The notes under the pieces: generated by a model
Told to the model about the DNA's origin: nothing
Database searches by the model: none
What the model saw: only the letters and a program-made list of their open reading frames with translations
Shown here: in pieces, positions 69-25,192 of the stretch
How positions within the stretch are numbered: position 1 is the stretch's first letter
Layout: each line of letters opens with the position of its first letter
Made by a program: the position numbers and the translations under genes
DNA from: Spirogloea muscicola
Taxonomy: Eukaryota; Streptophyta; Zygnematophyceae; Spirogloeales; Spirogloeaceae
Assembly (NCBI GenBank): GCA_009602725.1
Contig: WELB01000066.1
Coordinates: 614,186 to 639,377 of the forward strand
Length of the DNA stretch: 25,192 nt
Direction of reading: 5' to 3'

Positions 69-1753
69 ATGACACGGCCCCGCCGCAGCCTGCCCCTCTG
101 GCTGCTCCTCACCACCGCGCTCCTCCACGCCAGCGCCGCCCGTGAGCCCCCCTCGCCCTCCCTATGCGCCGCTGCCGCCGCCACCGCCGCCGCCGCGCCT
201 CGTTGCCGGCGCGCTTGGCCACAGCCCCACGGCTGCTTGCTGCGGCTGCTGGCTCGGGCAAGGGCTGGCCAGCCGGCGAGGCGCACTCGCTGCGAGTGTC
301 GCCGTTGTCCTCCCAGGCGCCGCACCGGCAGCGCCAGTCTCTGACGGCGCGAAGCGGCGGCTCGTGCGCGCTGCGCTGCAGTGGTGGACTCGGTGGAGGT
401 CTCGTCGGAGAAGGTCGTGCAGTGGTCGCTGCCGATGGTGAGCAACGTGTCCATCTGGGCGGGCGGCTCCGTGACGTGGATCTGGGCGGACGAGCTCTCC
501 CACTCGCTGACGCGTAGGCCCCCTCGCCTGCGCTGCTGCTCGGGCCTCAGCCTCTTCCTTGCTGCCGCTGCCGCTGCCGCTGCCGCTGCCAGCCCTGATT
601 GCTGCATATGCATGCCTTCGAGGAGCAAAGATGGTTTTTCGTGCCTCGGAAGCCATGGCTGCCAAGCAGCGGTCTTTGATCACTGGCCTTTGACCAGAGA
701 ACAGGTCCTCGATGATAGAGTTGATAGCTCTGCTTGATGCTGTGGTTGGCAGTCGGAGCTGCTCGCAATGGCCTGAGTCGCAGCGCAGTCCTGCCTTGCT
801 AATGTTCTCGACACTAGAGTTCAGCTGTTGTCCCAGGGGCCTGGTTTGCCCCAGCGTGTCCTGGTCGCATGGCCTCGCTTGCCTTTGGGCGTCCGTTGTA
901 TCGCACAGTGTGCTAGCTCAAGCCTTTTGAGCTGCGTAGCTGCAACGTAGGCCACATCGAGCCCAAGCCCAGGCCGCTTCAATTAAGCAGATGAGGCCAC
1001 TGCCGTGCACACCATGTGATGACGCTGTCAGTGTGGGATGCGGGTGGTGTGCTGCAGCCGCGGACAGCGCGCCGGACGACGCAGCGACCATCTTCACGGG
1101 CCCCGGCACAAAGGACAGCCTCGGCATCTCGCTCACGCGTAGCCTCACCTTCCCCGCGCAAGGCGTCTACCGCTACTACTGCTCCAACCATCCGGACGAG
1201 ATGGTGGGGACTGTGAACGTCCTCGCTCCCGCCGGTAAAGGACCGCCTCCCAGAAAGCGTGCTAAGAAGAAGAGAAGCCCGGGTACACAGCTTGCCTTCT
1301 CTTCGCTCCGTCGCACGCTTGGAAGCAGCACGGGGCATCATGCATGCGGCTGAGCCTTAGGACGGAATGCCTGCGTGACGAGTGCCAGAGCGTCATGGCC
1401 GCGCGGGAGGTTTGGCCCCTAGCTCCCGGCAGCGGCCGAGGAGGATGCATGTTCTCCGGTTTAGTAGGCTGGTCTGCACTGGGGCAGGATGATGCGTGCA
1501 GTGGCAAGGTGTGCCACTGAGGTTTGTTTCTCTCCGCTTCTGTGGGTTACCCCCTCGGCTTGCCGACTTGATGGCAGACGGCCCAGGTTTGCATGCCGAT
1601 ATCTGAATGCAGTGCTGCTCTCGCTCTCGCCATCGTGCAGTGGCGAAGAAGAAGGGAAGTAAGAAGGTGACGCCCAGGCCGCCACCTCCGCCACCGCCCA
1701 AGTTGAAGCTCCACCCATCACTTCGAGGGAAGAGGCCGGTTCGGCAGCCGTGA
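69..1753 (+). CDS. Secreted plastocyanin-like cupredoxin (4 exons)
   Basis: Predicted exons are 69–141, 382–513, 1058–1234 and 1641–1753, giving 164 residues. All three introns are phase 1 and the joins keep one open frame, which supports the model. Residues 1–24 form a signal peptide (basic start, Leu-rich core, HASAA end), so the protein should be exported. The core is a cupredoxin fold with a Trp-rich strand, WAGGSVTWIWADELSHSLT, carrying the first copper ligand His65. The C-terminal copper loop YYCSNHPDEMVGTV gives Cys110, His113 and Met117, so all four type-I copper ligands are present. The tail is Lys/Pro-rich, with no clear GPI signal. Such proteins carry single electrons or bind copper at the cell surface; the partner is unknown. 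The last exon is the least certain: the acceptor at 1640 is the only one I found that reaches a stop in a compatible frame. The ATG at 69 is chosen because the signal peptide starts there. Confidence 0.78.
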
Positions 1754-3774: not shown

Positions 3775-6700
3775 TTAATAGCAGCCAGCAGGGAGGTACG
3801 TCTGGGTTGCTCGTTGCTGCTTGGCCGCCACCTCGTGACGCCACTTGTCATTATGCAACTTGTAATGTAAAATCTGCATACTCAAGTGCAAGTCAGAGTA
3901 CCTTCCATGGTAACACAAGGGAGATATGGAAAGGATGTCCAATCAGTGTTGAACCCGACACAGTTCTGGGGGTTTGTCATTCCATTATCTTCCAATCCAG
4001 TAGCTCTCAGTGCTCACCCAAGGCGTGAGGCACATCCATGATGGCAGCAGAGTAATTGACAAGCGGGCTTACCTGGATGAGCGTCGTAAGTGCATCTTCC
4101 TCAGCAAGAGCAGATAGCTGCTCTGCCCAGAGAGGACTATGTCCATAGAGCTCCCGCTGCCTGTCCGCTTCCAAGCGTATGACTGAGTGCCAACTAAATC
4201 GCTGCCAATTTGCGCGCACAAAAGCGAGCATGGCTGCCACCTCCTCATCTGACTTTGACCTTAGAATATCTGCCATGCGTGGTATGTCTGCCTCTCCAAT
4301 ACGCACGGTGAAGCTGTTGAAATCCAGGACATTCTCAAATGGCAGCTGTATCCCATCCTGCATAGCCACTCACTAGCTGCATCAATCTTCCTGAAGCTGC
4401 TGCCCAATCTCCCTTCTAGCTGGCCGACACACAGCCAGCCAGAATAGCATGGTCTGCTAATGACGTACTTGACGAAGGTGCTCATATACAGCAACTTCGA
4501 ACCAGATGGCATCAGCATATATAGAACTTCATAGCAGTCATACTTGAATGATGACTGGTATACATCCGTGGAGGATGGCGTCCTCCATGCGGGCGCTGAA
4601 GCCGTCTCCTGGGAAGACACCGCAAAACTTTGAAGATGATATCTCGCGCCCGTACTCAGGATGTCGCTCGTGCGTCACAACAATGTCATCCTGATGTGAA
4701 GTCCCCATCACACCTTCCTGGAGAGCATTAAGCATACCCCTTCGTAAGGGTGAGCAATCTCTACATGCAGTCTTAGCAAGTTCAGATTCATCTAAGCCCA
4801 CAGAGTATGTCCATTTTGAATGTAAGAGATCTTCCCACCGTGGAGCCACGTCTGGTCACTTCTATCTTCCTGGCTGCATATTCACAACCTGCTATCTCTT
4901 TTGTGACTTGATAGGCTGCTGACAGACCAGAGGACAGGCACAAGGTAAGGCGAGAACTGAGTGTTGGTCGATTACAAGCAACACTAATGAGGGCCTTCTT
5001 TACATCAAGACTTGAGGCTTGAGAGGAGTTGGTCTTCAAGGTGATGACTGAAGCAGAATGGGGAGCTGCTGACATTGTTAACGATTGATGCAAAGTGCTC
5101 AGCCACGGCCTGGCGAATGCCCGTGGAGTACTCAGGCTCCACTCGACCAGGCGTAAATTTGCTGCCAAGGTTGCCATTAAAGTAGAAGAGCTTCGTCCTC
5201 TCCTCCAGGGGCCTATTTGCACAAGCAGTCAGGCCAGGATTGGCAGTGCAGTCTCGAGCAAGTGCTCAGCAGTTGCGCTTAAGACAGTAACTTGTTAGTG
5301 ATCGAGCATGACATGAGAATGTCACAGAGCTTCCACATTGAGAATCTAAGGATGCATGTTTATTATCTTCCCACAAAGGCTGCATGGCTGGACCTCCATG
5401 CAGACGTGAACTATTAAGTGCATGAGTAGAGGTAAGATCTTCTAGGTGCATGGAAGGGAGGGAAATCGGGATGACGTTGACACTGGGACCCATCCACGTA
5501 GAGCTCACACTACAAACATGAGACTAGGAATCTGTAGGCCTAATCTTAATCTCGGTCTGGTTGTGGATGGCTGCTCTGCTTCGTTTAATTGCTGATTGCT
5601 AGCTCTTGAGACTCTCACCTTGCCCAATAGCGACTCCGTATGTTGTTAACATCTGGCCCTTTCCAAGCCGGCAAAATAATGTCCTTCTCCGGATCAAAGC
5701 ATGGATGATCTCCTCTGAAACTGTTATTGATAAGCCCCCACTTGTCAGAAGGATATGCAGTTGTGTGGGTTTTGTGCACAGTGTTGGTATTGCCCCAATG
5801 GGATAGCAGGATGGATGGCCAGATGCTCCGTGGAGCCATGCAGGCTCCTTCATCCCATGGAAAGACCTGTGCACATCATGGTAACGTCAAGAAAGCAGGT
5901 GAGCCTTGACGTATCCTATCTGACATTGCACCAGAGAAGAATATGTCCAAGGAGCGGAGGTCTGTGGAGGTTAAGCACAGTGACTTTCTACAAGTAGTGC
6001 ACATTCGTCTGTTCCCTCCTAAACCCCGAACCCTAAACCCTAAACCCTAAAATCAATATTTGGACCCCTGTTCCTCAGACACCCCCTCCATCCTCACCTC
6101 GCCCCCTGTCTCCCCTTATGCCCCCCGCCCCCTTGCCTCGCTCGCTCGCTCGTTCAATGGCTCCCACCCTCCCTCCCTCCCTCCCTCCGTCTACCCGTTC
6201 ATCCGTCCATCCGCCCATCCTTCCCATGGGTGCGTGCGCACGCCCGCATGCATGCACACAGACAACTATGTCTGCCCTGTGCTTCTGGTGAGGATGCTGA
6301 CCCATATATGATCTTTGCCTCCATGCTTGTCCCAGTATGTGTAGTTGCTTCGGATGTGCTCCAAAGCCTCCTGGTAAAGCTCTGCTGCAGCCCACACTCG
6401 TAGATGCTTTTGCTCGTCCTGTTTCAGAGCAGATCAGGAAAGTGGGACAATCATATTCTTATGTTAATCAAGGTGGCACTCCATCGCCTGTACACAGACA
6501 TGGGCAGCAACCTGATCTATGCCCAGGTCCCCCAGTAATAGCTGATGCCTGTTTGCAGCTGACTTGAGTATGAGATGCAGGCAACCCTATGATGATATTG
6601 CTAGACTACTAGGCACGTGAGATACTGATGGCTTGCCACCTTGCTAACCTTGACTGCCTGCCTTGGAGAGTCAAAACCCCTGATCACAGCGCAGCCACCT

Positions 6701-9700
6701 AGAATGGGAACAAAGAAGTAGTCTGCTTCGTCCGCATTGGTTGTTCGATGCTTGGATGCCAGGAAACCCTCTGTTACAGCAGTCTGCAAAAATCAAACGA
6801 GGACGCTGAGTCATCAGCGTCCTCATCTTCATACAAGTGCATAGTTCCTGTATTGCCTTACTGCCTGCTTTATATCATGCTCGAGTGAAACTCCAGTACG
6901 AAACAGTATTGCCGGCTTGTGAAACTGGGCATGCTGTTGACATGCTGCCCATCTATTCTCAGGTGATCCACAGAACGAGATATTCGACGGAAACTAATCA
7001 TATTACAAGCCGAGTGTTTTCTCTTTTCATCCAGAGCCAATTTGCAAGCAGGTAGCATAGGTAAACTACTTCTTGAACTGTCATGAGAGGCAGTAGATCA
7101 CCCAAGCCGGGGTATGATGTAGTTGCAGCCAGTGGCTGAAATGTGCTGGTAGCTTACCTCTATCCCATGGAGAAGATAGGTGTTGAATGCAGTATGATTG
7201 TCCTCATTGTACTGCCTGGATGCACAGTAGAATCGCCATTGCCTTCCCTATCACAAGCCATCCCGGTGATCCAGTCAAAGCCGTCAATACCTAGGTATAA
7301 GCAATGGATCTTCTGACAAGAAGATGAGGCAGAAGCTACACTCTGGTTGCCTTTCAATTGCACAGTGCTGAGCAGCAACATGGGAAGCCCACAAGCAGAA
7401 GATAAAGTGTCAGCTTGACGTTGAGGAGACTGCATGCAATCTGAAGCACCCCCGCCAAGCACCCAAGTGCACTGACTACCTATACTTTCTGGGACAGTCC
7501 AGACCCACCTGCAGAAGGTGGGCATTGAATTTGGGAGGCAGATTGTAAATGTATATCAAGGGTCTTTGCCGCTTGATCTTCCTAGCTTTTGGGTCTTCCC
7601 TCAGAAGTCTACCTTCAATGCTTTCTGCATCTGGCGAATGCCCTCCAGTTTGTGTAGTGGATGCTTGGGGGTCCTGTGGTTGCACTACTGCTTCGGTTGA
7701 CTTGATCTGACTTAGTAATTTCCTCTGACTAGAGCGCTGCTCCACTTTGCCACTGGCAGTTGGTAAGTCATCTGGCCCTTTTGGGCTACTGGATGCTATA
7801 AGCCAGGGCGGGATGAAAGGTGCAACAGCTTTCGGCGGATTTGACATTGGTAGGCTGCAGTCAACCCCGTACCACCCTTCCTCACACTGCACATAGTGTG
7901 AAGATAATTTTATCAGGCTTGAACTTCAGGTCGCCGTCGCCTCCAGCAAGCAAGGAGGAGGCTTGATTTCACTAGCAATATTGAGCCTCTTTCAGGGGAA
8001 ATGAAGCAACTAGAAAGCTGGACAGGCTCTAAGCCTTCAACATTCTAACAACAGACATATAGAATAATGACATTGAATCCTACTCACTAGGACATACATG
8101 ACAGTAGCCATGATTGCAGAATCCATTTCCTGAGCACTGATTCAAACAGAAACTTTGCTGAACACGCTCGCAGAAGGCCCCCCCTTGCCCGTCGTAAGTA
8201 CAGGCGCACTCCAAGGGAGACTGCTGTTGCCCAGTGGCAACTTCTCCCGGATCAGCATTACACCAGCCAGGAGTTTTGGTAGTATTGCCAAATAAGTCAT
8301 CACGAGGGGCCATCTCTTTCCAGAGATAGATTCCATCCCTGGTCAACAAGCAAGCAAGGCTTACCTAAGGTTTCAAGTGGCCTTGACTAATATTCGACTG
8401 CAACCTGAGCACAAGCTATGCTGTGAAGAATTGGCTGCACTTATCACAGGTGCTTGCAAATACAAGGCCCTCCTCTGCTAAGCTAAGCTATACTATAACA
8501 TCCTTTTTGCTCAGCTGCATGCATCAGCAATGCCAAAGACTTGATGAGCAAAGCAAGGGAAAGCCTTGGCAGACGACTAGCTATCTGAAGAGAGTCGCTT
8601 ACTCACTTGCCCTTGAGAAATCCACAAGGAGAAACAACAGGCCTGTCTGGGTACTTGGTCCCCTCACCACAGAAGCAGTGTGCTGTCCTTGTGTCGCAGC
8701 TTGCTGGACATATGGATACGATCCATCTACCAAACGGATACTCCTCGATGGGAGGCATGTTGCAAGGAAACTCCTCAAGCTCCCCACAATTAGGGCCTGC
8801 AAACAGAAGTGCATCCAATGGCCAGTTGCAAGATTTGAAACCAATGCACTGCAGGTACTGCCACTTCTACCTTCATCATAGGCTGCTGCCACAAAGTAAG
8901 TACAATAGCACACTACATATGTCAAGCCTGGTCCCTAGTCCAGCAAGTCCGTCTTAGGCCACACATTGCACCTGCATAGCCAGATGGGCATGAGCATGCT
9001 CCACTGTCGGGATTGCAGTGACCTCCATTGCCGCACGCCTTCAAGCACCGCTTGCTGGGCACTGGCTGCTAACAGCACGTGCAGGCTCTCAGTATATTTT
9101 TGCTACTAGTTGCTCGAAGACCTGGCCAAGCTCAGTTCCTATTCCACAGTGCGTATCCACTACATGCTCATCTTCGACATGGGGCGGCCAGGTATTCGTA
9201 CTGAGCTAGACGATATAGAAAGGCTTGAGGAGACTGTTTGAGCTCTCACCTCCTTGACCTCCACGAGCTTGGCCAGCTCATGGCAGGAGCTGAGCCAATT
9301 GCCCACAGGAGCAATCCACGGAGCACCTCTGTAAAGCACGACCTCCTGCCTCACATTGCTGGGGCTTGCTTGGGTAGACTGTGAAGGAGTGCCTACGCCA
9401 ATATTGCTTTCAGTGTTCCTGCTCTCACCGACTGCATCTTGTTGCACAAGCAGGTCCGAGACTTCCGTGGATGGTGCGAGTACCAGTGCCGTCTCATATG
9501 ACCTCTTGAATATACTCAACTCAAACGTGTCGATTCCAACTATGACTGCCACTGGGGTATATACGGATGGTGAGTCAGCACTCGAGATGTCTATGGATAA
9601 TCACTGGTGGTACTTGGACCTCCCTACAAGAGGCCTTTGGCTAAGTCAGGCTATCATAGTGGTACATTCAGATGCCTGGAGGCAGTACGGACCTAGACGG

Positions 9701-10030: not shown

Positions 10031-10497
10031 CTCATCGTGCTCCAGCCGCGCCGGCGGCGCGACGGCGGCGGCGGTCCAGCGGCGCGGGACCTTGTCTCGG
10101 CGGCGCACCCCAGCGCCGTGTCAGCTGAGGGGCGCCGCTGTGCCAGCAGTCTTCCGAGGCGGTGCTCCTGGAGAAGCGGCGCACGACCGCGGAAACGCCG
10201 CCGCGACGCTGGGAGACGGCGCCGCGCTTCGGGTGACGGCGGCGGCGGCGGCGGCGGGAGTGGCCGCTGGTCCGTGTGCCGCCAGCAGCTCCCTGCCTAC
10301 TTTCCCGTGCAGGCGCCGGCGAGGCCGCGCTCTACTTCTGGGTCACATCGGGGTCTCTTAAACGGTGGCTGGACTTTTCAGCAGCCGCATTCATCAGGCA
10401 TTACCGTGGCTACACCTTCTGCAGCGGCTTGCACTGCACCGGCAGGGCCATCGATCGTCGCCAGGGAGGGAAGGCGCGCGGTGCGCATGACTTGAAA

Positions 10498-10559
10498 GAA
10501 GAAAGTGCTCGCCCATTGAGAATAGGGGCTGGAACAACCAGCCCGAAAAAGAATGAACA
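10498..10559 (+). repeat. Dispersed short repeat, copy A
   Basis: This segment, starting GAAGAAAGTGC and ending near GAATGAACA, aligns along its whole length with 17999–18060, roughly four in five bases identical by eye with one gap. It contains a small hairpin, GGGCTGG–AACAA–CCAGCCC. No open frame is shared by the two copies. Confidence 0.65.
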
Positions 10560-10643
10560 GAGTACGAGAAGGGGGCCAGGGGAAGCGCTAAGTAACTTGA
10601 AAGGCAGGCCAAGTCAAGCCAGTGCATTGTCCAGGCAGGCAGA

Positions 10644-10746
<103 letters not shown>

Positions 10747-11655
10747 CAGGGCCATGGCCAACTTCTTCGACAGCTTGTGACATGGTTGCCGGCTGAAGTA
10801 CGCTAATATGCCGCATGCAGTGTACTTGGCAGGATGGACATTACCTCCAACATTGTCGTGCTGCTGTGCCTAATTGGAAGTGTCAAACTGCACTGAATAT
10901 CATGGTCAGGCCTGTTAGCAATCTCTTTGGTGCGGCCCAGCTAAACAGCAGCTGTAAAGACCGGAGTCAGACTCTCAATAGATAAGTTCTCCGAGTGCTC
11001 TTTATGGGATGCTACGCTCTGACACCACATTCCTGCTTCAAGAAGATCGAGCAAGTGCAGCTGATTTGCAGTAAGGGCCAGCGCTCGTGCATGTTGCCAT
11101 GGACTACGAGGGTGGCTATATATGGACAGATTGAGAGCCACAGGTATGCAAGGCTACCTTGCGAAAGCCTGTCCATAGCAGACATACGCTGGGTGCGCTT
11201 CACTGGCAGCATACACTTGCATGCGGCTTGAGCTATGTCGAGACTGCTGGATATCATGCATGGCAGCAGAAAGATGCAGTAGTTGACAGGCCAGCTGCAG
11301 GCGCGGTCGTGCAGCCTCACATGCCATCAGGGAGCGAGCTGCACGTCGAGGCCGCAAAGTCTGAGCTCATTGGAGGAGGCTCTTCCTGTAGAGGGCGATG
11401 GCTGTGCTTGGCCAGCCCAGAAGAAGAACGAACGATGTTTCGAAGGCGCCACAGAAGCGGTAGGAACACAGCGACTCAAGTGTGGCCACCGGGTGCTCAA
11501 TGCTGAGCTCATTTGCCTGCACTCGTGCGACCACAGTTGTGGGCAGAATCTGACGCCCGCATTGGGTTGTGGACACCTACAAGTACCTCCGTCTGCAGTG
11601 CGAGTTGGGCTCTTAAGCCCAGAACCCTAACACCCGACCACAAACCCTGCACCCA

Positions 11656-11729: not shown

Positions 11730-14700
11730 ATGGTCGGCGGCTGGCTGGACCCCGACGTGGACGAGGGCTCGGAGGACGATGACGAGGAGGATTACGCCCT
11801 CGACGAGGGCGGCGGCGGCTGGCTCTGGCTGGCGAGCTCCAGCCCGCACGTCGGGGGGAAAGCAGCGGCGATCTCGTCCAAGGACTTGCTTGCGAGCAGC
11901 TCGCCTCAGAGCGCCGGTGCTCCGCTCCCGCTGGCCAATGCCTCAGGGCTGCCAGATGGCAGCTCTGCGCAGCAGCGTCAGGAGTCCAATGGCAACGAGG
12001 TTACTGTCTCGTGCAAAGCCTTTCCTCAAGATCGCAGCGGCGACGACCATGCGCCGATGCTTCTGGAGGTGGAGGTGACGCAGAGCCTCGAGTCGAGGAA
12101 GAAGCGGAAGCGGGTCAACCCTAAATCCTAAAACCTAAACCCTAAAACCCTCAAGCAACGCGGAGGAGGCGACGGCCACCTGGTCCGACAGCCTAGCTCA
12201 GCTTGCGCCTGGAGTCTGGCAGTAAATTGAGTGTGCCGTTTCATCAGAAGCCGACCTGGTTGTTCTTGGGCAGGCAATGTCTGCCCAATGCCGAAGTACT
12301 GGAGATTTGAATTTGGCAAGCTATTTGTCCTCTAAAAGTAGGGCTTTGTGGCACGGGAGTCATGCTGATGTTGTACATAGTGTTGCTTGTGCACAGGTGG
12401 GTGATGGTATTGAAGCTGTTGGCTCAAGAAGCACTATTGGTGAAGAGGTGCAGGTCAACGATCATGGTCGTACCGCCAGTACGGAGGTGGTGGATGTTGT
12501 AGCACAAGTTGGAGGAGCTTCACCAGCCACAGTCAATAGTGGACAGTTGCCAAACACCGACTTGGAGCTAAGAGATGCACAAAGGGAGGAAAAGGCACCT
12601 CAACATCCGAAAAGCATGCAGGCAGATAAATTGTCACTTGAACACGCCCTGGTGGCCTCCCAGGTGAACGAGCAAGAAGTAGTAAAAAGCAGTGATGCAG
12701 AGGCCGGTGAGAGGCGCTCGCATGACGAGGTCAGCGGAGGCGATGAGGGACAAATGGATGACTCCGAGCTGCGGAGGAGGAAGAGCAAGATGCTGTGGCA
12801 AGTGCTGCTCCGGCAGGTGGACCTGACCAGGCTGCAGAAAAAGATTGAGGTGCTCATCCTAGTCAAGCAGGCTGTTCATGTGCCTCTGGAGAAACATCCA
12901 GATTGCATAGACACCTCACTTCTTTTCGTGGAGTAGGGAAAGGAAGTTATGCTGGAGAAGTGAGATGTACAAAGGGTTTCGGAAACAGTCAACTCAGCAA
13001 TCGTAGTTCTGCAAGATGATGCATCTATTTGATAGGCACCAGGCTGTGCTCATTGGTCAGGATCAACAGGAATACTGGCTTAAGCTGATACCCATTGTTC
13101 CTAATCCAGGAGCTCCCAACAGTACTTGAGGATACGCCTCCTGGGCTGATTCACATGGCCAGTCCATCCAAGGAGGAGGAAGGCGAGGACGAACTACTAG
13201 ATACAGAAGAGGAGGCCGAAGACCTCTCATACCCACCAACTTTCGTCCACAATGAACGCTGTGAAGCATGCTCAACCAGGGGGGAGCTCTTGTAAGTCGC
13301 ATACTGCCCTTTTGTTTGTTGTTGTTGCCAATCTCTACTTACGACGGGAGGGTAGTGGCAGCATCACATGCCAAAAAGACCTATCCTGTATGCATGCCCT
13401 TCCCGCCCTCGATGGCTTGCTTGCAGACCATAGCTGGCCCCAATCACCAATTACCAATCACCAACATTGGGCAAATAGCAGGAGTGAAGATGAGACAGGG
13501 AGGAGGTTGTACGATTGGGATTGTCAATTTAATTGGTGTTGGTGAGATTGTTGCTAACTATGGATTGTGGCACATTCTGGCAGACTGTGTGATGGAGCAG
13601 GCTGCACAACCACATACCACCTAGCGTGCTGTACTCCTCCTTTGGAGGAAATCCCCTTTGGCAACTGGTATTGTCCAGAGTGCGCTTACAAGAGGATAAA
13701 GGAGGGCGTGGATGTTGTTGCCTCTACAGTTGAGTCTATTTGGGGCATGAGAAGCAATAGCCGTGGCCTGCCCTTCACACTGCTGCCTAGTCCCAGCAAG
13801 CCAAAAGACACCTCACTCCTGATTGAGATGGAGGACTTACTGCTCTTTCACTTCAGCATGCTACCGGGAGCACTTTCAGACGAGGTGAGGACAGGACCAA
13901 GTAACTCGGACCCAACATGGGTTGGTGAAGGCATCTCCAATGGCCAAGCTGAAGCAGAATACTTTGTGAAGTGGGCGGGTGCCTCTCACTGCCACAATTC
14001 ATGGCTGAAGGAGAGTGAGGTGCTGTCTGCCCCTCAAGGTGCCCAGGTGCTTGCAGCCTATAAGAAGCTCTGGGCATGCGGCAAGGTGAACCAGGAAGAC
14101 CTTCCACTAATTTTTTTTCTGTATCACAGTTTGTATTAGGTGCTTCCTGCATTAAACGCATCATGTCACGCCTCCTCTCCGTTTGTAGCTCGCTGTCATC
14201 CAAATCCATAGTAAGCGTTTGTGATTCGACCATTCAACGATCAACAGTACGGGAGCAATATTTGACATTGTGCAGAGGCCCTGCAGCATTCAGCTTCACA
14301 TGCGCCAAACTGTTGGGTGCACGACAGGTGAGAAAGTGGAAGGATCTGTGGACCAAGCCCCAGAGATTATTAAGCAGCAAGGAGATAATGCCCCCAGTGT
14401 TTTCCCCATCGAGACGGCTGAGCAGTGGTAGTATAAGGTGGCAGGCTACCTCATCTACAATCGGCAAGGAGTGGTGAGGTGCCTACATACTGCAAAACCG
14501 GTTTGCACTCTACAGATACAGTCATGTATTATTGGTCTCCAGGGCTACTTTTCATACCACCGAAGCAGCACTCAGCTCTGCAGCTGCTGCTCACTTAGCA
14601 GACAGGGTTCTTGACTACTCGGGCTTCACATGGCTTGCGCATCTAAGATTGCTCGCAGCTTGGTCTGGTATTTGTGCATATTGTCAAGAAGGCACTCTTC

Positions 14701-17700
14701 ACTAGAGCACTACACGTCGTGGCGTGCAGTCTCTTGCAAGGGCCTGTGTGATTATCCCTCACGGGGTGCAGTCTGTCAAGAAACACACTGATAATAAGGG
14801 TTAGCAGCAGGTGCTTTGTAAGTCAAGGTACTGATTGTGATTTTGAGAGAGCGCGCCTTATGATAGACCAAGCCAAGCTTGCTTCCACTGCAGGCTTGTC
14901 AAGTGGAGGACCTTGCCTTACTCTTGCTGCACATGGGAGCCTTCAAACGAGGAAACATTGGCAACTGCTGAAGCTATCACCCTGCAAAGCCACCTTCAGA
15001 GTCGCCACCTGATATGTCAGAGAAGACTTGATCCAAGCAAGGCTGCCGAGGTGCGACTCAGACGACCATGAAGGTTGCCTTCAATTGTGCCACATATATA
15101 TGTTATCATCTATTTAAGACATTTAGCCTGCCCCAAAGTATCTCAAGCACAACTTGCAGCCTCTGTTGCTCAGGTTGAGGCCAAGCGAAAGGGTGAGCCC
15201 AGCGTGAGCGTGCAACTCCCTAAAGGACTGCAGAGTTTGGGAGCAAAAAGCATGTCTTATCAGGTGGACTGCCTTAATTGGCTCATATCTCGGTGGAAGT
15301 CAGCAGACGACCACGCTCTCACTTCCTTCTCTCGTGGCCTGGTGCGTGTCCCATGGCCAAGCACTTCTGTTGATGTATGGAGCTTGGCATTAGTAGTAGG
15401 AGATTAGCCTTAGGGACAACGCCATCCTTCTTCCTGCACTTTGGTAGCTGCTGTGTATCAAAACAGACATGCCAGTAAGACCCTGGTGCCTAACATATCA
15501 GGCACCTTCGCAGGTTGCAGAGTGAATAATGTTCAAGATTGCTTGTTGTTTGCTAGGGGAGGAGATTTGCCACAATTTTGTTTTTAGAAGTTGTTCTTCA
15601 GCAATACCAGATGCCTCGCGCTGTCCTCATCATCGGTGAAGCCTCATGCCTCTTTAGATGGGAGGCACAATTAGAACACTTTCTCCCTGATGTAAACACT
15701 GTACATCTCAAAGGGGGCAAGGCAAGCAGAAACTTAATACTCAAGGAAGAGCTTGGGCCCAATCCCACTATTGCTCAGTGCGTTCTAGCTTCACCAGAAG
15801 TCATCAACGAGGTGTGCGTTACTTGCTGAGGTTGAGCATTAGGAGCGCCCATTCATGCATAAATTTTGGCACAGCTCACCTTATGGGGTGATTTCAATTG
15901 CGTTAGCATTGAGATGCTTGCTTTCGTAGGTCCTTTCCTGCAGTTCGAGATATAGAGCATGTGCAGGCAGTGACGTGCTGTGATGAAGTGCTTCAGAGAG
16001 GGCTGCCTTTGACCTGCAAGTAATGCTTATGTGCTTTGCAGGAGTTAGAATTTTTTGTAACGGAGAAGTGGGGCATCATTGTGTTAGAAAGTCCTGGTTG
16101 GGCTTCTGTGCCAGTAAAGCCCTTGGGTTCACTCTCGCAGCTACATGCAGATTTTCGACTTGCGCTGTCAGAAAAACCACTTGCAGTAAGCTTTTCACAC
16201 ACTGGCCAGCTGTGATATAAAATAAAGTTCAAGAGCAAAGCTTGGGTATTGATACTTAGAATACAGTAGAATGCAAATCTACATTTGAATCTCACAGATG
16301 CTTCAGCATGGACGTGTTGTTGAGTCCAAAGTACAAGGTGCCATTCACACTCGAAGTTCTAATAGTCAGTAGCCCTTTTTTCCAGATATCAGTGCTTGTC
16401 CATTTTTGCTGATGCTCTTAAAAGATGATGTGCCGTGCATCCTGCAAGTGGTACAATCACATTGATAGCCATTGTCCTTACATAACACAGGATCAGCCAC
16501 AGGCCAGTGCCAGATTTCTCCTCCACTTCATGAACCCCAGCAAATATAGTTTGGAGGAGCAGGCAGAGGGCTGGAGCCCAGCAGAGACGAGCTTGAAGAA
16601 AGTGACTGCCCGAGTGGAGAAGAGAGAGCACAAGGCGGTCAAGGTAGTGGAGATGTGGTTGCCTGTGGACATGCGCAGGATTCAGAAGGAGTACTACAGG
16701 TAGTACACTGCAGTCATGGCACTTGCCCGAGCTGCCCATCTGAGAGTCAGAATGTCGTTCTGCAAGCCAGATGAGACCTGAGCTTGCAAGCTGTGCTCCT
16801 TGCTCTGGCACGTTGAGAGCTCTTCTTCGGGCTTAGTGAGACGTGTGATGTATAGCTGACCTGAGTTGGCCTCTAGAACCATTTCACATGAGCACAGTAC
16901 ATGCTCCCACTCTTGGTGCTGTTGCATAGGGCAATCTTGCGGAGTCAAGCAGGCCTTCTGATGTCTGGCAAGCAGCAATTAGAGAGTGGAGGAGTTACTT
17001 TGCAAGACGTTATTGCTCAACTTCGTATGGTTAGGACAGGGCATTGTATTCTCCCTTGACTAGGTGCAATCTGCGAAGGCCACGCAGCGAGTATGCCTTA
17101 AGCTGCAAGTTAGCCATGTGTTGTCTGACAGTGTTGCGACCACGCATCCTTGGTGGCGGGAACAACCAGGATGCAGTGGGCCCTGCAGCTGGCAGATGAG
17201 TCCAGTGGCAAGCTGCAGGTGCTTCAGCACCTCCTCAACCACTTCCGTCAGTTGGAGGAAAAGGTTGTCCTTCTTTACCAGGTACCTCCCTTTCCACCCA
17301 ACTTGTACTCAGGGTTGTCATTGCATCATTAGAGAAGATACTCTGCTTTATTTCAGCTGCTAAAATCTGGATTAATGTTTGAAAATGTATTTTGAGTATA
17401 CTCTCTTTGCACCTTATGGTAGTCATTGGAGGGCTTGTGATGCTATTCGAATGTATCGTACCATGCGTGCTGTCAGCACAAACTACTCATATGCCGGCTT
17501 ATTGTCACTTGACTGTCTTGGTGCTACCTTGTTGGGCTTTGCAAGGTGCATGCTATGGGAGCCATTCTTGAAGACGTATTCCTGAGGCGGGCAAACTTTA
17601 ACTACACCTTCATTGATAGTGCAAATACCATCGGAGTCAAATTGGCACAGGTTGCGGAGTTTAGCACCTGGACTTCAGGCGTGATAGTGATGACCCCACA

Positions 17701-20700
17701 AGATTTAGATATCTCAATAGACATTGCCACCATTAGTGTTGTCATATTTTACGACCACAACTGGGACCCTCTGCTTGACCTGCAGGTCAGCCACTCGCCT
17801 GGTCTTTCCGTTGCTCTTAGACAAGGCTTCAGCTTTGGATTTCCAACTGCACTCAGTCAAGAGTCTTGGCTAAGTCTGCAAGCACAGCAGGTTTCATGTC
17901 CTCCAGCTTACTTCCATTGTTGGTGTCCATTGTATCTTGCAAACGTCAAAGTTTCGTCAGATGGCTGTCAACGGGAGTTGCTGATGTCTCCTCACAAAGA
18001 AGAAAGTGCGCGCCCATAAGGAAGAGGTGCTGGCAGAGGCCAGCCCGAAAAGAATCGACAAAGCCCTCTGAGGATGGACAATCCTCACTGTTGTCTTATC
18101 TTACTAGTGGCACATGTAGGCCTCACAAGATCCTTGTTGCCTGGTCATCACACAGGCGCTTGAAAGACCAGCGAGATTTGGCATGGCTGGTCAGCCCCTG
18201 CAAGTTTACCGCCTGTTCACCAGACACTCTGTGGAGCAGCAGTTTTTCCAGCGCTACCATGCAGCAGCTAGGGATGGCAGCACGAACAATCTTGGCAAAC
18301 TTGTAGCCCTTGCTGGCCTCCCACATGACATGGAGGAGGCCCCACAGCCATGCGAAAAGGTCAGAGAGTGCCAGGAAATACTTACAGTAGGGGCTGCAGA
18401 GCAATTTAAAGATAACAGGTTGGCGGAAAGTCCGCAAAAGGGAGAAGCCAAGCTGGTGGAGGGAATGGTGATGCATTTGCATGCGAAGATGGTCGAAGCT
18501 TGTTGCCAGTCCCCAAGCCAGAGTGGGAGAGAAGTACTACTCTTCAACAGTGACAACAACGTGGAGGACGTCGAAACCTCAGGCCAACAGAGCAAGGAAA
18601 CCAGGTCCTCTGGCGATGACATGGATGACCAGGATGACACTCAAAGCCCCTGGAAGTGGGTCTGGATGGACATTCTAAGTGGACCTAAGAGGCAGGAGGA
18701 GAGAGAGGAGAGCAGGGATGCTGGACCTGCAGAAGCTCGCACTCAGGAGACTACGCAGGAGGAAATAGTTAGTCTCTTAGATCATGTTCAGCATACTTTG
18801 GAGGTAACGAATGTCCCGACTACCATCTCAGCCTCTGATGATGCTGCACAATTGTCAGAGAGGCCTAGTTCTTGCGAGCAGGTCAGCGCCACCGGAGAGC
18901 TCGAGGTGCCACAGCCTGCAGAAGAGGCTGTCAACATAGCAGAACCTGCAGGCGGTTTCGGCCCCAGTCAGAAGGTCACGGAGCCAGGGCAGCCCAGACA
19001 AGCAGAAACTGTGAGCGGTGGTGCGGAGGACTTGGAAGGATCTGAGAGCCATCACCAGGTGACTCAAAGCCCAGAGCCGGAAGCTCAACAACTTGCACTA
19101 GATGCACAGGATGAAGTCTCACAGCAGGACAAGGTTCTGGAGAATGGTAACAAGGTGATGCTCCCCCCAGAGCCTGAGCAGCCACAGCTTGTTGGCGATG
19201 AAAGCGCTAGGAGCGCTGCCCCACCTGTGGCAGAGCACTCTTTGGAAATGCATCTCGCAAGTCCAGGGGCTGCTGCTGTTGCCACAGGGGATGAAGTTGA
19301 GGGCGAAGCACATGCAGGACGAGAGGGCGGCCACAATGCACATCAAGTGTCGTCGAACCAGGGGGGTGAGGGGAGTCAAGTTGGTGTTGATACTGTGCAG
19401 GAAGCTTCTCGAGAAGCTGAGCCTCGAGAACAAGTAGCACTTGACGTAGCTGGAAGTCAAGTAGAAGCAGATGACATCGTCCGCATCGTGAGGAGCGAAT
19501 TGAAGCAGGCTTGCCGATTACTCGAATTATCTGTAAGCTCCTGCTTTTTTCAGCCCTTCTGTCTCTGTCAGGTCACTGTTGCCAAGTTGCAGGGCATAAC
19601 ACGAGTGAGGGAGAAGAGGATTGTAAGGGGGCTGCTGAGAACAGTAGGTATTGTGTTACTTGCAGGACAAGGTAGAGAAAGGGGCTTTGGAGACGTTTGT
19701 GATCTTGACCAGCAGATACCGGCTAAAGAAGCGGACTATGGTGGCCATGATTAGCACCGTTTTGACCCTGGTAGGACCCTGGTACATTCTCTCTTATGCC
19801 AATGTTATGTTGTAACAGTCAATCAAGAATGTCTTCAAAGTGCGTGCAGTATGTGCTTTGAAATTATGCTTTGGCGAAAGGCTCCGATTTCATTCTCAAA
19901 GGTTGCAGGACATTCACCTGCACCATCTTCACTCTGCCTCTGTGATACCCTCTGGCAGTGTCGCATCGCAGCAGAGCGCGAGCTGGTAGTCTTTGATTTC
20001 CAGGACTGGCTAGACCGTGTTACAAAGCACAAGGATGTACGCGTGCCGCGCCATAAATTGGATGCTATTTACCAGCGGCTCGTCCGCACGCTGAGTTCAC
20101 TCACGAATAACTCGGTTGACTCAACTCCATCACCCACTCCGCCAGAATCAGCTACTACTGGCCGAACACAATCTGATCATGCCCAAGTGGATCAGCTATC
20201 CGAGCCACCATTGGCAGGACCTAGCGGACCGCTTCTTCAGGAGCACTTTGGGGTCAACGACTTCGGTACTGCGGCGGCCGACGACCCAAATGCCGTGTTG
20301 GCCAGTGGCGCTCATGACCCCGACCTTCCTCCAGCGCCCAGCCTCTTCAGGCTCTCGGTGCCTTCTGTCTCAAATGACTCACTGGACCAGATTGCAACGA
20401 CTGCGAACCAGGGTGCTGCAAGCGAGCCTGTGCAGTCACTACAGCCAGCACAAGAGATGCTGGATCACTTGACAGATGCCAGTCTCACCAGGGGGCTGCA
20501 AAGTACTCAAGCGCCAGCCAATGAAAGCCAGCCAGACCGGCCACCTGGCTTTTCCGCCTGGAGCTCCGCCTGGATCTCAGCAATTGACCTGCAAGAATGG
20601 CAGGCAACTGACACACGGTTGCTTATGCAGAGGCAGCAGCAGGAGTCGCAAAGTCTGCAGCTCCGGCTTGAGAATGCGTTTAATGTGCTGGACCGGCAGC

Positions 20701-22368
20701 TGGCGATAGAGGTCGTGCAGCAGGTGGCAGCGGGCTACCCGGCAGACAAGCAGGAGGCAGAACAGCGACAGCGCACGGCAGCCCGACTACTGCTGGTGCA
20801 GCAACATGCAGTGATCAGAAAGCAGCAAGCATTCTCGATGCAGGAGGCCCGGGAGGCGCTGCGCCGGCAGCACCGCGACCAGCAGCGGCAGCTGGCGTTG
20901 CAGCAACGGCGATCATCTGGCGGTGCAGCTGCCGAGGCGGCCACGGAGCCGTGCGCTGCCCTGCCAGCGTCTGTAGCAGCCGCCGCGCCTGGGCACGAGC
21001 CCACCTCCCAGCAGCGGCAGGACGACATGCCGGGCCGCATCCAGGCAACTGGGCCTCAGCCGCAGGAGCTTGCCGAGGCGCCAGACCCTGCTCCGGCGCC
21101 GGCACTGAGGGAAGCCGCGACGGCAGCGGCCAAGCGCTCTCTGCGGCCTCTGATCCCTGCCAGGCCACTGCCGTCAGCTGGGCTGCCAGAAGTGCTAGAG
21201 CGCTTAACCTCTGGGCAGGCCCAGCAGGCTGCAACATCACAGCAGCCGGCGCAGTTGCAGCGGAGCGCCAGCCATGGCTATGTCGGTGACCAGGTGCTGC
21301 TGAGGGAGGCTGCTGCGCTTGGCAGGGGCTTGCAGCAGCAGATATCACGCCATCAGCTGACATCGTTGCCGCCTGGCCAGCCATCACAGCAGCAGCCGCC
21401 TGTCGCCAGCCAGGCCGGCCAGCCCCGCCAGCCGGTGGCAATGGCAACGCCATCGGGCCAGCCTGTGGTCGTTCCGCAAGCGCAGGCAGCGGTGGTGCCC
21501 CAAGAACCGCCGGCGGAGCAGCCGTCAGCACAAACTTTTGGGCCGCAGGGACTGCCGGGAGTGCAGGCATCAGCTACGCCTCAAGCCCTCCCAGCTGCCA
21601 CGCCTTCGGCTGTGCCGCAAGGCAGCGACCAGCAGGCGAGCGACTTGCCCATGCTTCCATTGCTGGAGGCTCAGGGCGGTGCTGAGATGTATCCGCAGCC
21701 GGCGATGGCCTCGCTGCTTCAGCAAGTCACGGCGGCCGAGCAAGCCGAGGATGGGGAGCGAGTGTTGCCGGCGCCCACCATGGCGGCAGTGCCGCAAGCT
21801 CCTACTATAGAGTCGGGGAGCGCGGTCAATCAGATGATTGATCCGGTCTTCCTCCAGCCAGCTGACTTGCTCTCTGCTCAGATCACGAGCCCGTTTGCTG
21901 CCGAGGAGTTGCGGCTCAAGATCAAGCTCAACTCCATTAACAACAAGTATAAGGTTACGGTGAGTACCTGACCCCACACTTCTGATGTATTTATTCAAGA
22001 GCAGCAAGAGGTGTTCCTTTGCTTTAGTTCCAACTACTGACCCACCCATACTAAGATTAGATTAGTAGAAGCACTGAAGCCACTGCTTGGCAAATGGAGG
22101 CAGCAGCTGTTTGGCATTTCCTGACTGCTGGCCCAATTATCTCTGAGTGCAGTCCGCAAATACCATCGCGGAGTACGAGCAAGAAGCCAGCAGGTTACGG
22201 CAGCTATATCGAACCAAGCTGCACGACCTTAACAATGCGAGGCTGGGGCAGACACAGCTGGTCCTCAACATGCGGCATATCTTGATGTCCAACCAACATC
22301 TTGCGGAAGCAATGAAGAGCAAGTCTTCTTGGGACCAAGCAGGAGCTGAGAGCTTGCCAAGAATATAG
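11730..22368 (+). CDS. MOM1-like CHD3-derived chromatin protein with degenerate SNF2 ATPase (17 exons)
   Basis: Exons: 11730–12113, 12397–about 12927 (ends uncertain), 13110–13291, 13584–14085, 14328–14473, 14894–15050, 15174–15341, 15557–15811, 16042–16185, 16491–16699, 16930–17029, 17132–17281, 17546–17785, 18156–19532, 19666–19770, 19959–21959 and 22153–22368. From exon 3 onward all joins agree in phase; about 2,300 residues in total. Order: acidic N-terminus with a KKRKR nuclear-type signal, PHD finger, chromodomain 1, chromodomain 2, SNF2 N and C halves, acidic linker, helical block, long Q/A/P-rich region, C-terminal coiled coil. The family is CHD3; the replaced ATPase motifs, the split second chromodomain (WTKPQRLL … EWLVKW) and the long tail point to the MOM1 branch, which acts in transcriptional silencing without remodeling activity. 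An active PICKLE-type remodeler is unlikely because the Walker motifs are absent. The start codon and exons 1–2 are the least certain. Confidence 0.85.
12117..12152. repeat. Telomere-like repeat at the first splice donor of the MOM1-like gene
   Basis: Degenerate CCCTAAA units (CCCTAAA, TCCTAAA, ACCTAAA, CCCTAAA) start three bases after the proposed donor at 12114. Translation would reach a stop within the repeat, so the repeat is best placed in the intron. It is in the C-rich orientation of the transcript. Confidence 0.8.
13260..13683 (+). other. PHD finger of the MOM1-like protein (split by an intron)
   Basis: A C4-H-C3 zinc finger: CEAC in exon 3, then LCDGAGC, YHLAC and WYCPEC in exon 4. 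The intron (13292–13583, GTAAGT donor) falls between the two Leu-rich halves in phase 2, as GELL joins LCDG. The linker TPPLEEIPFGNW is the usual CHD3-type sequence. PHD fingers of this kind bind histone H3 tails. Confidence 0.92.
13951..15000 (+). other. Tandem chromodomains of the MOM1-like protein
   Basis: Chromodomain 1 in exon 4 reads AEYFVKWAGASHCHNSWLKESEV. Chromodomain 2 starts in exon 5 at LWTKPQRLL and resumes in exon 6 as LVKWRTLPYSCCTWEPSNEE, joined in phase 2 through a Trp codon. Between the two parts lies a loop of roughly 30 residues where PICKLE-type CHD3 proteins have about ten. As I recall, MOM1-related plant proteins have a similarly long loop ending in EWLVKW. An alternative frame in exon 5 is interrupted by TAG. 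Confidence 0.82.
15174..18290 (+). other. Catalytically altered SNF2 region of the MOM1-like protein
   Basis: Alignable from exon 7 (PKGLQSLGAKSMSYQVDCLNWL) through exon 14 (QVYRLFTRHSVEQQFFQRYH). Walker A GLGKT reads GLGRR across the exon 7/8 junction; motif Ia survives partly (PRAVLIIGEASCLFRWEAQ); the DEGH box reads IVLESPGW (16078–16101); motif III TGTPLQN reads SEKPLAD; motif V reads TPQDLDISIDI (about 17693–17725); motif VI reads ERPARFGMAGQ (18156–18194). Structural pieces remain, such as SGKLQVLQHLL and VIFYDHNWDPLLDLQ. The fold is kept and ATP hydrolysis is very likely lost. Confidence 0.85.
17999..18060 (+). repeat. Dispersed short repeat, copy B (intron 13 of the MOM1-like gene)
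   Basis: Matches 10498–10559. The internal hairpin is kept as GCTGGC–AGAG–GCCAGC although its bases differ from copy A. It lies in the intron 17786–18155, in the same orientation as the gene. Confidence 0.65.
18156..21959 (+). other. Acidic linker, helical block and Q/A/P-rich tail of the MOM1-like protein
   Basis: Exon 14 (459 codons) leaves the SNF2 fold after about 45 codons and becomes an acidic Glu/Gln/Ser-rich linker. Its end with exon 15 (DKVEKGALETFVILTSRYRLKKR) and the start of exon 16 (CRIAAERELVVFDFQDWL … HKLDAIYQRLVRTL) forms a helical block. This resembles in position and character the CMM2 region of Arabidopsis MOM1; that match is from memory and is inference. The rest of the 667-codon exon 16 is Gln-, Ala- and Pro-rich, with a basic Gln-rich helix around 20620–20920. 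Confidence 0.65.
22153..22368 (+). other. C-terminal coiled-coil exon of the MOM1-like protein
   Basis: 72 codons including the stop: ANTIAEYEQEASRLRQLYRT and following, with heptad-like Leu/Ile spacing, then a short polar end at TAG (22366–22368). It joins the preceding GTGAGT donor (21960) in phase 0. It is probably a dimerisation helix. Confidence 0.75.
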
Positions 22369-23595: not shown

Positions 23596-25192
23596 TCAGA
23601 ATTGGCCGGCACGTATGTCCTGATCCAGTCGATCTGCATTTAACGTGCCTGGAAGCTCCTGAAAATTCTCATTGAATATGGAGTAGGCACTGCTGTGCAG
23701 CACACGAAGTAGACTGTTAGCACAGACACTGATTTCTGACTACTACGCTATCTCAATTTCTAAGCACGTACAAGTCTGAGTGCTGTGACCCATCGAAAAG
23801 AGAGAATGCATAATAAAAATCACTCATGTCAAACAGAAATAACAGCCAGGGTGCAAGAGAATTAACAATCTGGAAGCAGCAAGACAACTCGACAATCATT
23901 CTGGAAGCAGCAACACAGGGACGTGCCTCATGTCCCCAGCCTGCCGATTTCCGAGGTTGATGAATATGATGGCAAAGCAAGTGGCGAGAATCTACATGCA
24001 ATCTTGCAGTAAGAAACTACATACTGCTGGTGAGACAATGACAGCCTCCTGCCACTCGGGCTCTCTCAGCCAGTAACAAACCACAGATCTAGTCTGTATC
24101 ACTTGAGGCGTATGACCCGGCATTGCTAGAATACATGAAATGCAGGTGCATGAGACTCACAAAGGCATCTTAAAAAAGTTGCAGTGCGGGCATTGTTGAG
24201 AGGGGCTGCTCACATAAACAGGGCCAAGCTGATAGTGGTGCATGACAGGGGCTGCAACGAACCACAGGATGATGCAGATCCATGTCCGGAGCTGCAGCCA
24301 GAAGAAGACGACAAGAACATAGTCTGCAGGAAGACCAGCAGGGGCATTTTGTTAGGTAACCCTCATGTCAATCCAGGTGCCCAAAGTCAAATGACCTTCA
24401 AAAGCAAGTGGTACAATGTCTGAATGGTTGCGCAGTGAAGGAAAATACAGGATCTGGCCACTGATCTGCTCGCGGCTTCTGGTACCTGGGAGCTTCAGCC
24501 AGCGTCTCATGAAGCTCGCCGCTCTTCGCTGGAAGGGCGTCGCCGTAGGCGGGAGCCCAAAATGCTGTGCAAGGAGAAGGGTGTGCCGCAATCAGCAGTC
24601 ACTATGCTGAGTGGCTCAGACCCCGCAGAACTTCTTGGTGGGCGATTCACCTCATTGAGAAGACTCCAGCACTGACGGTGGGCGGCTTGTAAGCGGGCCC
24701 TTGTGGCTAGGATGGCGGCCAAGATATGGCTCGAGGTTTAGGAAAAATCATGAGAGGGTTTATGATTTAGGGGTTCAGGGTTTGGGGTGCAGGGTTTAGG
24801 TCTAGAATATAGGGTTCAGGGGTTCAGGGATTTAGGGGTTTGAGGTTTAGGATGCTCACAATGACGTCGTCTCCGTCCTCATCGTCAGCGTCACCAGCCT
24901 CCACCAAGGAGGCGTGGTGCGACGGCGGCGGCGGCGGCGGAGCCACGACGGCGATGAGGGCTTCTGCAGGAGGAGGAGGCAATGTGGGGGGTTTGGGATT
25001 CGAACCCTGGACCCCAAACGCCGACGCTCCAGCTTCAAACGGCGGCGGCGCCGGCGCTGACCTCCGTCGGAGAAGCTGAGGGGCCGGCCGTCGGGCAGGA
25101 CGCCTCCTTGGCGCACGAGCTTGAGGCGCTCCGGCGGGAGGCCGGCGGCCGCACCCACCAGCGCGCGAGCGGCGGCCGCCTACGCGGCGGCG
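23596..25192 (-). CDS. UBL–SAYSvFN membrane protein, 5' end beyond the window
   Basis: Exons: 25179–25062, 24963–24860, 24564–24486, 24323–24214, 23991–23927 and 23692–23596. All joins keep frame. Exon 25179–25062 is the second half of a ubiquitin-like domain (GLPPERLKLVRQGGVLPDGR), completed by EALIAVVAPPPPPP; the β1–β2 half must lie to the right of the window. After an acidic linker comes HFGLPPTATPFQRRAASFMR, then two membrane segments (YVLVVFFWLQLRTWICIILW; then QLGPVY joined to ILATCFAIIFINLG) and the hallmark SAYSIFNENFQELPGTLNAD, ending AGQF and stop at 23598–23596. Animal SAYSD1 is an ER membrane protein linked to UFMylated ribosomes and translocon quality control. A related ER role is likely here but not shown by the sequence. 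No ubiquitin tail Gly-Gly is seen, so the UBL is an integral domain. Confidence 0.85.
23925..23927 (-). other. Probable GC-type splice donor in the UBL–SAYSvFN gene
   Basis: To join LGNRQAGDM to SAYSIFN in frame, the exon must end at AG (23927) followed by GCACGT instead of GT. The downstream acceptor (CACAG before 23692) needs phase 2, and this donor supplies it. No in-phase GT donor is visible before the stop that follows. Confidence 0.55.
24738..24852. repeat. Degenerate telomere-like repeat block in an intron of the UBL–SAYSvFN gene
   Basis: About 115 bases of TTTAGGG-type units with variants (GGTTTAGG, TTCAGGG, TTTGGGG, TTTAGGGG) on the plus strand. In the minus-strand gene they read CCCTAAA and begin a few bases after the GTGAGC donor at 24859. 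They fill the first part of the intron 24859–24565. Confidence 0.85.

Follow-up and report, generated by a model that had tools for sequence, protein, structure and literature searches.

The 25,192-nucleotide stretch of DNA considered here (the window; C66:614186-639377, contig WELB01000066.1) carries on its plus strand a long, many-exon gene in which a PHD finger and two chromodomains are followed by a full-length SNF2 region and a MOM1-like domain. The search space was a 153.1-Mb assembly of 471 contigs, and the host was taken to be Spirogloea muscicola or a close relative, an assignment on which the evolutionary claim made below depends. This zygnematophyte is described as the streptophyte alga whose genome was triplicated (PMC11712027, PMC7994812). 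Genes examined in the assembly occur as threes, and a protein query made from exon 8 of the present gene found three genomic places, namely the window, C46 (99% identical), and C47 (94%). About 20 kb was taken around each of these two homeologs (L034+L035 and L036+L037, respectively), and both regions are colinear with the window, with an identity of 86-88% across most of 12.2-24.7 kb and of 90-93% at 11.66-12.12 kb. Exons 2-17 were modeled from the three-way alignment, using exon-like blocks of conservation and splice sites. In C46 and C47, all 16 exons are open across all 15 joins to a common terminal TAG, giving models of 2100 and 2101 codons, respectively, including the stop. The preliminary description of this DNA had claimed a frame open over more than ten joins; in the window copy this holds for exons 6-17 (11 joins) but not just upstream, where residue 381 of the model, encoded in exon 5, is replaced by a TAG, the single internal stop in exons 2-17. 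In each copy, 14/14 donors are GT and 13/13 acceptors are AG, and the remaining edges (the acceptors of exons 2, 5, and 15 and the donor of exon 15) are AG or GT in all three.

The SNF2 region (15174-18290; eight exons, 7-14) reads open in the window copy, and its motifs were scored in an alignment that included yeast ISW1 and two of the CHD3-type genes found in this genome. The five motifs originally quoted were all recovered at their places; exon 7 begins exactly at 15174, and the edges of its junction with exon 8 are 15341 and 15557. The replacements include GLGRR for GLGKT, SPE for SYE/TYE, LESPG for DEGH, SEKPLAD for TGTPLQN, and TPQDLDISIDI for STRAGGLGINL. Lost in all three copies are the Walker A lysine and threonine, the aspartate of DEGH, TGT, and motif V, with minor variants in the homeologs (SERPLA in C46, DISM in C46 and C47, and TPHD in C47). 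The claim that every catalytic motif is replaced is therefore sound for Walker A, DEGH, TGTPLQN, and motif V but too broad elsewhere: motif VI, where RAHRLG has become RPARFG, retains both arginines and the glycine (RxxRxG) in 3/3 copies, as does the Q-motif its glutamine, and a glutamate can be aligned with that of DEGH. The retained RxxRxG and glutamine would suit a SNF2 region that still binds nucleotide or remodels through some unusual chemistry, yet with the Walker A lysine and threonine, the DEGH aspartate, and motif V all gone, this seems very improbable. As judged from these residues, the SNF2 region is predicted to lack ATPase activity. Transcripts using another exon 7/8 junction might have restored GLGKT, but GK[ST] is readable in no frame of this intron in any of the three copies. 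SPE for SYE and CCDH may be points of resemblance to the SNF2 part of vascular-plant MOM1 proteins.

Table 1. Features of the gene in the window, numbered from the first nucleotide of the window (a slash marks an intron).
Feature	Positions	Strand	Content
Putative exon 1	11730..12118	+	Opens with an ATG (11730); acidic beginning, then a basic KKRKR cluster; donor provisional
Exon 2	12397..12849	+	N-terminal region, low conservation; dN/dS 0.37-0.38
Exon 3	13110..13291	+	Acidic stretch, PHD finger start (CEAC from 13260)
Exon 4	13584..14085	+	Remainder of PHD finger (C4HC3 ligands present), chromodomain 1
Exon 5	14426..14478	+	Beginning of chromodomain 2
Exon 6	14894..15050	+	Chromodomain 2
Exon 7	15174..15341	+	Q-motif region, GL of motif I
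Exon 8	15557..15811	+	GRR of motif I, giving GLGRR in place of GLGKT; motif Ia region; SPE
Exon 9	16042..16185	+	IVLESPGW (16078-16101) for IVDEGHR; SEKPLA (16168-16185) for TGTPLQ
Exon 10	16491..16699	+	LLHFMNPSKY framework, linker to lobe 2
Exon 11	16930..17029	+	Lobe 2
Exon 12	17132..17281	+	CCDHASLV at CNHPYL position
Exon 13	17546..17785	+	TPQDLDISIDI (17693-17725) for motif V STRAGGLGINL; ends DLQ/
Exon 14	18156..19532	+	Motif VI ERPARFGMAGQ (18162-18194), SNF2 end, long acidic linker, MOM1-like domain start
MOM1-like domain PF25029	19482..20114	+	Exon 14 end, exon 15, exon 16 start
Exon 15	19666..19770	+	Middle part of MOM1-like domain
Exon 16	19959..21959	+	Rest of MOM1-like domain, Q/P/A-rich region, CMM2-like coiled coil start
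CMM2-like segment	21882..22323	+	End of exon 16 and exon 17
Exon 17 (last)	22153..22368	+	Ends TAG

The architecture is that of CHD3 remodelers. The PHD finger matches PF00628 (E 1.1e-08), and the two chromodomain stretches of the C47 copy match PF00385 (2.3e-12), as does its chromodomain 2 alone (exons 5-6; 6.2e-07, 29.7 bits); chromodomain 1 of the window copy alone stays below the cut-off of 25.1 bits (7.3e-05, 23.1 bits), and both chromodomain matches span only part of the profile. In the Protein Data Bank (PDB), the PHD-chromodomain part of C47 finds CHD5 first and CHD4 next. The spliced SNF2 region of the window copy matches PF00176 (7.6e-14) and PF00271 (5.1e-07); the spliced protein alone does so, and none of the 139 matches in an exon-by-exon genome search with PF00176 (96 of 161 candidates scored) lies in the window. 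The PHD finger, double chromodomain, and SNF2 region of CHD3 remodelers are thus present, while Walker A, DEGH, and motif V are no longer intact (GLGRR, LESPG, TPQDLDISIDI), which bears out the initial reading of a kept CHD3 architecture with lost ATPase residues.

Further evidence of CHD3 descent comes from introns shared with the CHD3-type genes of the same genome, which form two sets of three copies (set 1, C3/C107/C56; set 2, C212/C78/C19) and which we take to be PICKLE-like. Set 1 keeps GLGKT, DEGHR, TGTPLQN, and RAHRYGQ in 3/3 copies, and set 2 keeps DEGHR, TGTPLQ, GGLG, and RAHRLGQ in 3/3 copies. In set 2 an intron splits GLG/KT, so that exon-wise motif scans miss the Walker A of L056, the one copy in which GLGKT was verified. 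The exon 7/8 junction of the present gene lies 1 nt from this very intron (L056 3582-3810), the end of exon 9 is the exact intron position of TGTPLQ/N in set 2, and the end of exon 13 is that of DLQ/A in set 1. Overall, of the seven introns in the SNF2 region, three are at most 1 nt away from one of 16 CHD3-paralog introns (P 0.0012 under random placement) and two match exactly (P 0.014), with some of the CHD3 junctions in this comparison being approximate. The present gene therefore resembles its CHD3-type relatives in having chromodomains followed by SNF2 and in three intron positions, but differs in its dead motifs, theirs being intact and their ratios of nonsynonymous to synonymous substitution rates (dN/dS) being 0.03-0.04.

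The MOM1-like domain lies C-terminal to the SNF2 region and exceeds the curated PF25029 cut-off of 27 bits in all three copies (window, 5e-07, 30.0 bits; C46, 2e-06, 28.0 bits; C47, 9.4e-08, 32.4 bits); from its position, this segment is probably CMM1. A genome-wide search with the PF25029 profile returned no match, as expected for a domain split across three exons, and no positive control matched either; a protein-form query of the domain found three loci only (9 matches, 3 per locus). The C-terminus reads SSWDQAGAESLPRI. Against 177635 PDB sequences, its sole match up to E 10 was 3vem_A, the CMM2 of MOM1, a weak match (E 0.86) with a p of 0.009 in class-preserving shuffles. In Pfam, the CMM2-like segment recalls only MCM_N, below the cut-off (0.033), and the exon 16-17 protein of C47 has no match. 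The preliminary description had cast the gene as an intermediate form apart from MOM1, a view that gives way here to membership in the MOM1 family, given PF25029 in 3/3 copies and the weakly CMM2-like C-terminus.

The substitution pattern shows that the protein remains under purifying selection. By the Nei-Gojobori method, dN/dS (in the order window-C46, window-C47, C46-C47) was 0.12, 0.19, and 0.21 for the SNF2 region, 0.24, 0.22, and 0.34 for the MOM1-like segment, 0.17, 0.10, and 0.31 for the CMM2-like segment, 0.42, 0.58, and 0.28 for the PHD finger and chromodomain 1, 0.64, 1.07, and 0.77 for the exon-14 linker, 0.72, 0.53, and 0.55 for the middle of exon 16, and 0.43 in every pair for the whole coding model. 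Bootstrap intervals of the short segments are wide, those of C46-C47 reaching 1.07 (CMM2-like) and 1.00 (MOM1-like). The SNF2 region differs from all sequence outside the named domains (pooled branch counts, p 9e-07), and in a neutral simulation about 4.2 stops per lineage were expected within it (18.6 in the whole frame), against none observed. In the intact CHD3 paralogs, the SNF2 pieces have a dN/dS of 0.032-0.043 in set 1 (371 codons, one of six segments dropped) and 0.027-0.035 in set 2 (244 codons, three of nine segments dropped). The dead SNF2 domain is constrained less than the live one, yet is far from neutral, since its dN/dS is about three to seven times that of these paralogs and below that of the linkers; the former difference also speaks against the unusual chemistry considered above. 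Selection on the protein, as first proposed, is borne out by the SNF2 values, and the accompanying argument from motif loss with a preserved frame applies to the SNF2 region of all three copies, but not to the part upstream of it in the window copy.

It is at the N-terminus that the window copy departs from its homeologs. Its exon 5 contains an in-frame TAG at 14429-14431 (TGG TAG TAT); the corresponding codons of both homeologs are TGG TCG TAT. In addition, a 42-bp telomere-like insertion of the CCCTAAA type (12119-12160), missing from both homeologs, puts an in-frame TAA into putative exon 1. The frame from the ATG at 11730 is open in 3/3 copies, exon 1 has a dN/dS of 0.40-0.75, which is weak evidence of coding, and its protein has no Pfam match. 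Because of these two stops, the N-terminus of the window copy may be impaired, the homeologs having neither. A further step would be to regard the window copy as a decaying homeolog that no longer yields the full protein and whose function is carried by the other two, a reading compatible with MOM1 membership of the family and one whose chances fall somewhat short of even. The PHD/chromodomain branch of the window copy indeed has the highest dN/dS (0.55, versus 0.17 and 0.26), but this excess falls short of significance (Fisher p 0.084), its SNF2 and CMM2-like branches are low (0.12 and 0.09, respectively), and the loosest SNF2 branch is that of C47 (0.33). The donor of exon 1 is provisional, and the exon 5 TAG itself ends in AG, in phase with the conserved CAG acceptor and 6 nt past it, such that splicing there would skip the stop; TAG acceptors are used elsewhere in the model at exon 8 (3/3 copies) and exon 11 (2/3). 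An alternative exon 5 starting at 14276 was ruled out by an in-frame stop in every copy, each at a different position, and most of that stretch was consequently assigned to the intron. Further telomere-like tracts occur in the window near 6020-6050, 11617-11640, and 24770-24850.

With a CHD3-derived SNF2 region bearing mutated essential residues, the gene is likely a member of the MOM1 family, that is, a CHD3-derived pseudo-remodeler that combines an ATP-incompetent, full-length SNF2 region with a MOM1-like domain and a CMM2-like coiled coil and that would serve as an ATP-independent, dimeric chromatin scaffold. Several observations weigh against this assignment. Among PDB matches of the window SNF2 region, ISW1 comes first (1.3e-34), ahead of CHD1 (7.4e-33) and CHD4 (1.9e-27), and the SNF2 region by itself shows 28% identity to yeast ISW1 and no more to CHD3 (25-28%), its identity to each canonical protein being 25-28% and that of the canonical proteins among themselves 45-52%; the case for CHD3 descent consequently rests on architecture and introns. 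A three-sequence profile of the C-terminus found no MOM1 in the PDB, only ribosomal protein L3 chains (E 0.72-0.89), and the C-terminus lacks the SUMO-interacting CMM3 (VVCLS). To these may be added the TAG of exon 5 and the TAA of putative exon 1 in the window copy. The equally low identity to CHD3 and ISWI and the weak CMM2 match would also fit a CHD3 copy that degenerated independently in the algal lineage and converged on a dead SNF2 region without being a MOM1 ortholog. This origin would accord, too, with the seeming absence of MOM1 homologs from Chlamydomonas and Physcomitrella (PMC2507757), which obliges MOM1 orthology to assume a patchy distribution. It is nevertheless unlikely, considering that PF25029 exceeds its cut-off in 3/3 copies, is placed after SNF2 like CMM1 in MOM1, and that CHD3-type genes with intact motifs coexist in the genome.

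Membership in the MOM1 family places the gene beside a known architecture. According to PMC2507757, MOM1 is CHD3-derived and occurs in vascular plants including Selaginella; poplar PtMOM1 has a PHD finger, a double chromodomain, and a SNF2 region with essential residues mutated, and SmMOM1 of Selaginella shares its structural features. Compared by this published description, the algal gene is alike in these domains and in the MOM1 motifs downstream, but unlike in its apparent streptophyte-alga host, its lack of CMM3, and its weakly recognizable CMM2. The architecture is thus already known, and what would be new is its occurrence in an alga. Arabidopsis MOM1 likewise has a MOM1-like domain after SNF2 and a C-terminal coiled-coil region (3VEM), but has lost the PHD finger, the chromodomains, and the first SNF2 lobe. 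Its SNF2 part is dispensable, CMM2 with a nuclear localization signal (NLS) being nearly sufficient (PMC2507757), whereas SNF2 is under purifying selection in the algal gene. CMM3 is also dispensable for silencing in Arabidopsis, and the CMM3 alignment there names angiosperms only (PMC6084981).

A chromatin-bound scaffold, as initially suggested, would be the natural reading of such a domain order. The PHD finger and chromodomains would put the protein on chromatin, the dead SNF2 fold would offer a binding platform that uses no ATP, and the C-terminal part would dimerize and recruit PIAL-type silencing partners. Partners would thereby be held on marked chromatin and selected repeats kept silent. 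Three homeologous SP-RING genes (L047-L052; C2:651391-651737, C15:373771-374105, and C86:216282-216627), with PF02891 exon matches below the cut-off, are presumably PIAL-like. A PIAL-type partner may be present in the alga, since PIAL has been reported in Spirogloea (PMC11371177). In Arabidopsis, a CMM2-NLS mini-protein of MOM1 pulls down MOM2, PIAL1, and PIAL2 (PMC10338684), and it is from Arabidopsis that we infer dimerization, partners, and a silencing role for the algal protein (PMC10338684, PMC3276543).

An algal MOM1, if true, would move back an origin that the family-defining paper puts at vascular plants (PMC2507757), and no report of an algal MOM1 was found in the open-licence PMC literature (titles and abstract starts, among the matches listed). 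The balance tilts slightly toward the view that MOM1 is not a vascular-plant invention but arose earlier than land plants, diverging from CHD3 and losing its ATPase in the common ancestor with Zygnematophyceae, that it was lost in mosses, and that it therefore predates RNA-directed DNA methylation (RdDM) dependent on Pol IV/V, the dead SNF2 region having an ATP-independent and still selected role of its own. MOM1 works with Pol IV/V-dependent RdDM in Arabidopsis. A genome search for DUF3223, presumably a domain of the largest subunits of Pol IV/V, had no match, and no control genome gave one either, so that absence is not shown. An algal MOM1 would separate the origin of the family from RdDM, as NRPD1/E1 are reported to be absent among streptophyte algae (PMC7994812). 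The algal gene would also provide a system in which a pseudo-SNF2 region is under selection, such that the job of SNF2 could be asked about directly.

Across the whole window, neither an Rfam nor a tRNA scan gave a match. A short dispersed repeat occurs at 10494-10595 and 17997-18055, the latter copy being an insertion in intron 13 that is missing from both homeologs; the C46 and C47 regions contain further copies upstream. In the assembly, GRAS domains are plentiful (92 exon-level matches), and the one match to radial spoke protein 3 stays below the cut-off (E 0.78), with no match in a positive control either; together with the genes in threes, these results underlie the assignment of the host. 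Finally, a plastocyanin-like fragment (~1060-1240, plus strand; PF00127 9.5e-05) stands next to a KR-rich tail, and an Exostosin GT47-type gene lies in pieces at ~4000-9200 of the minus strand (one piece, PF03016 3.8e-11).

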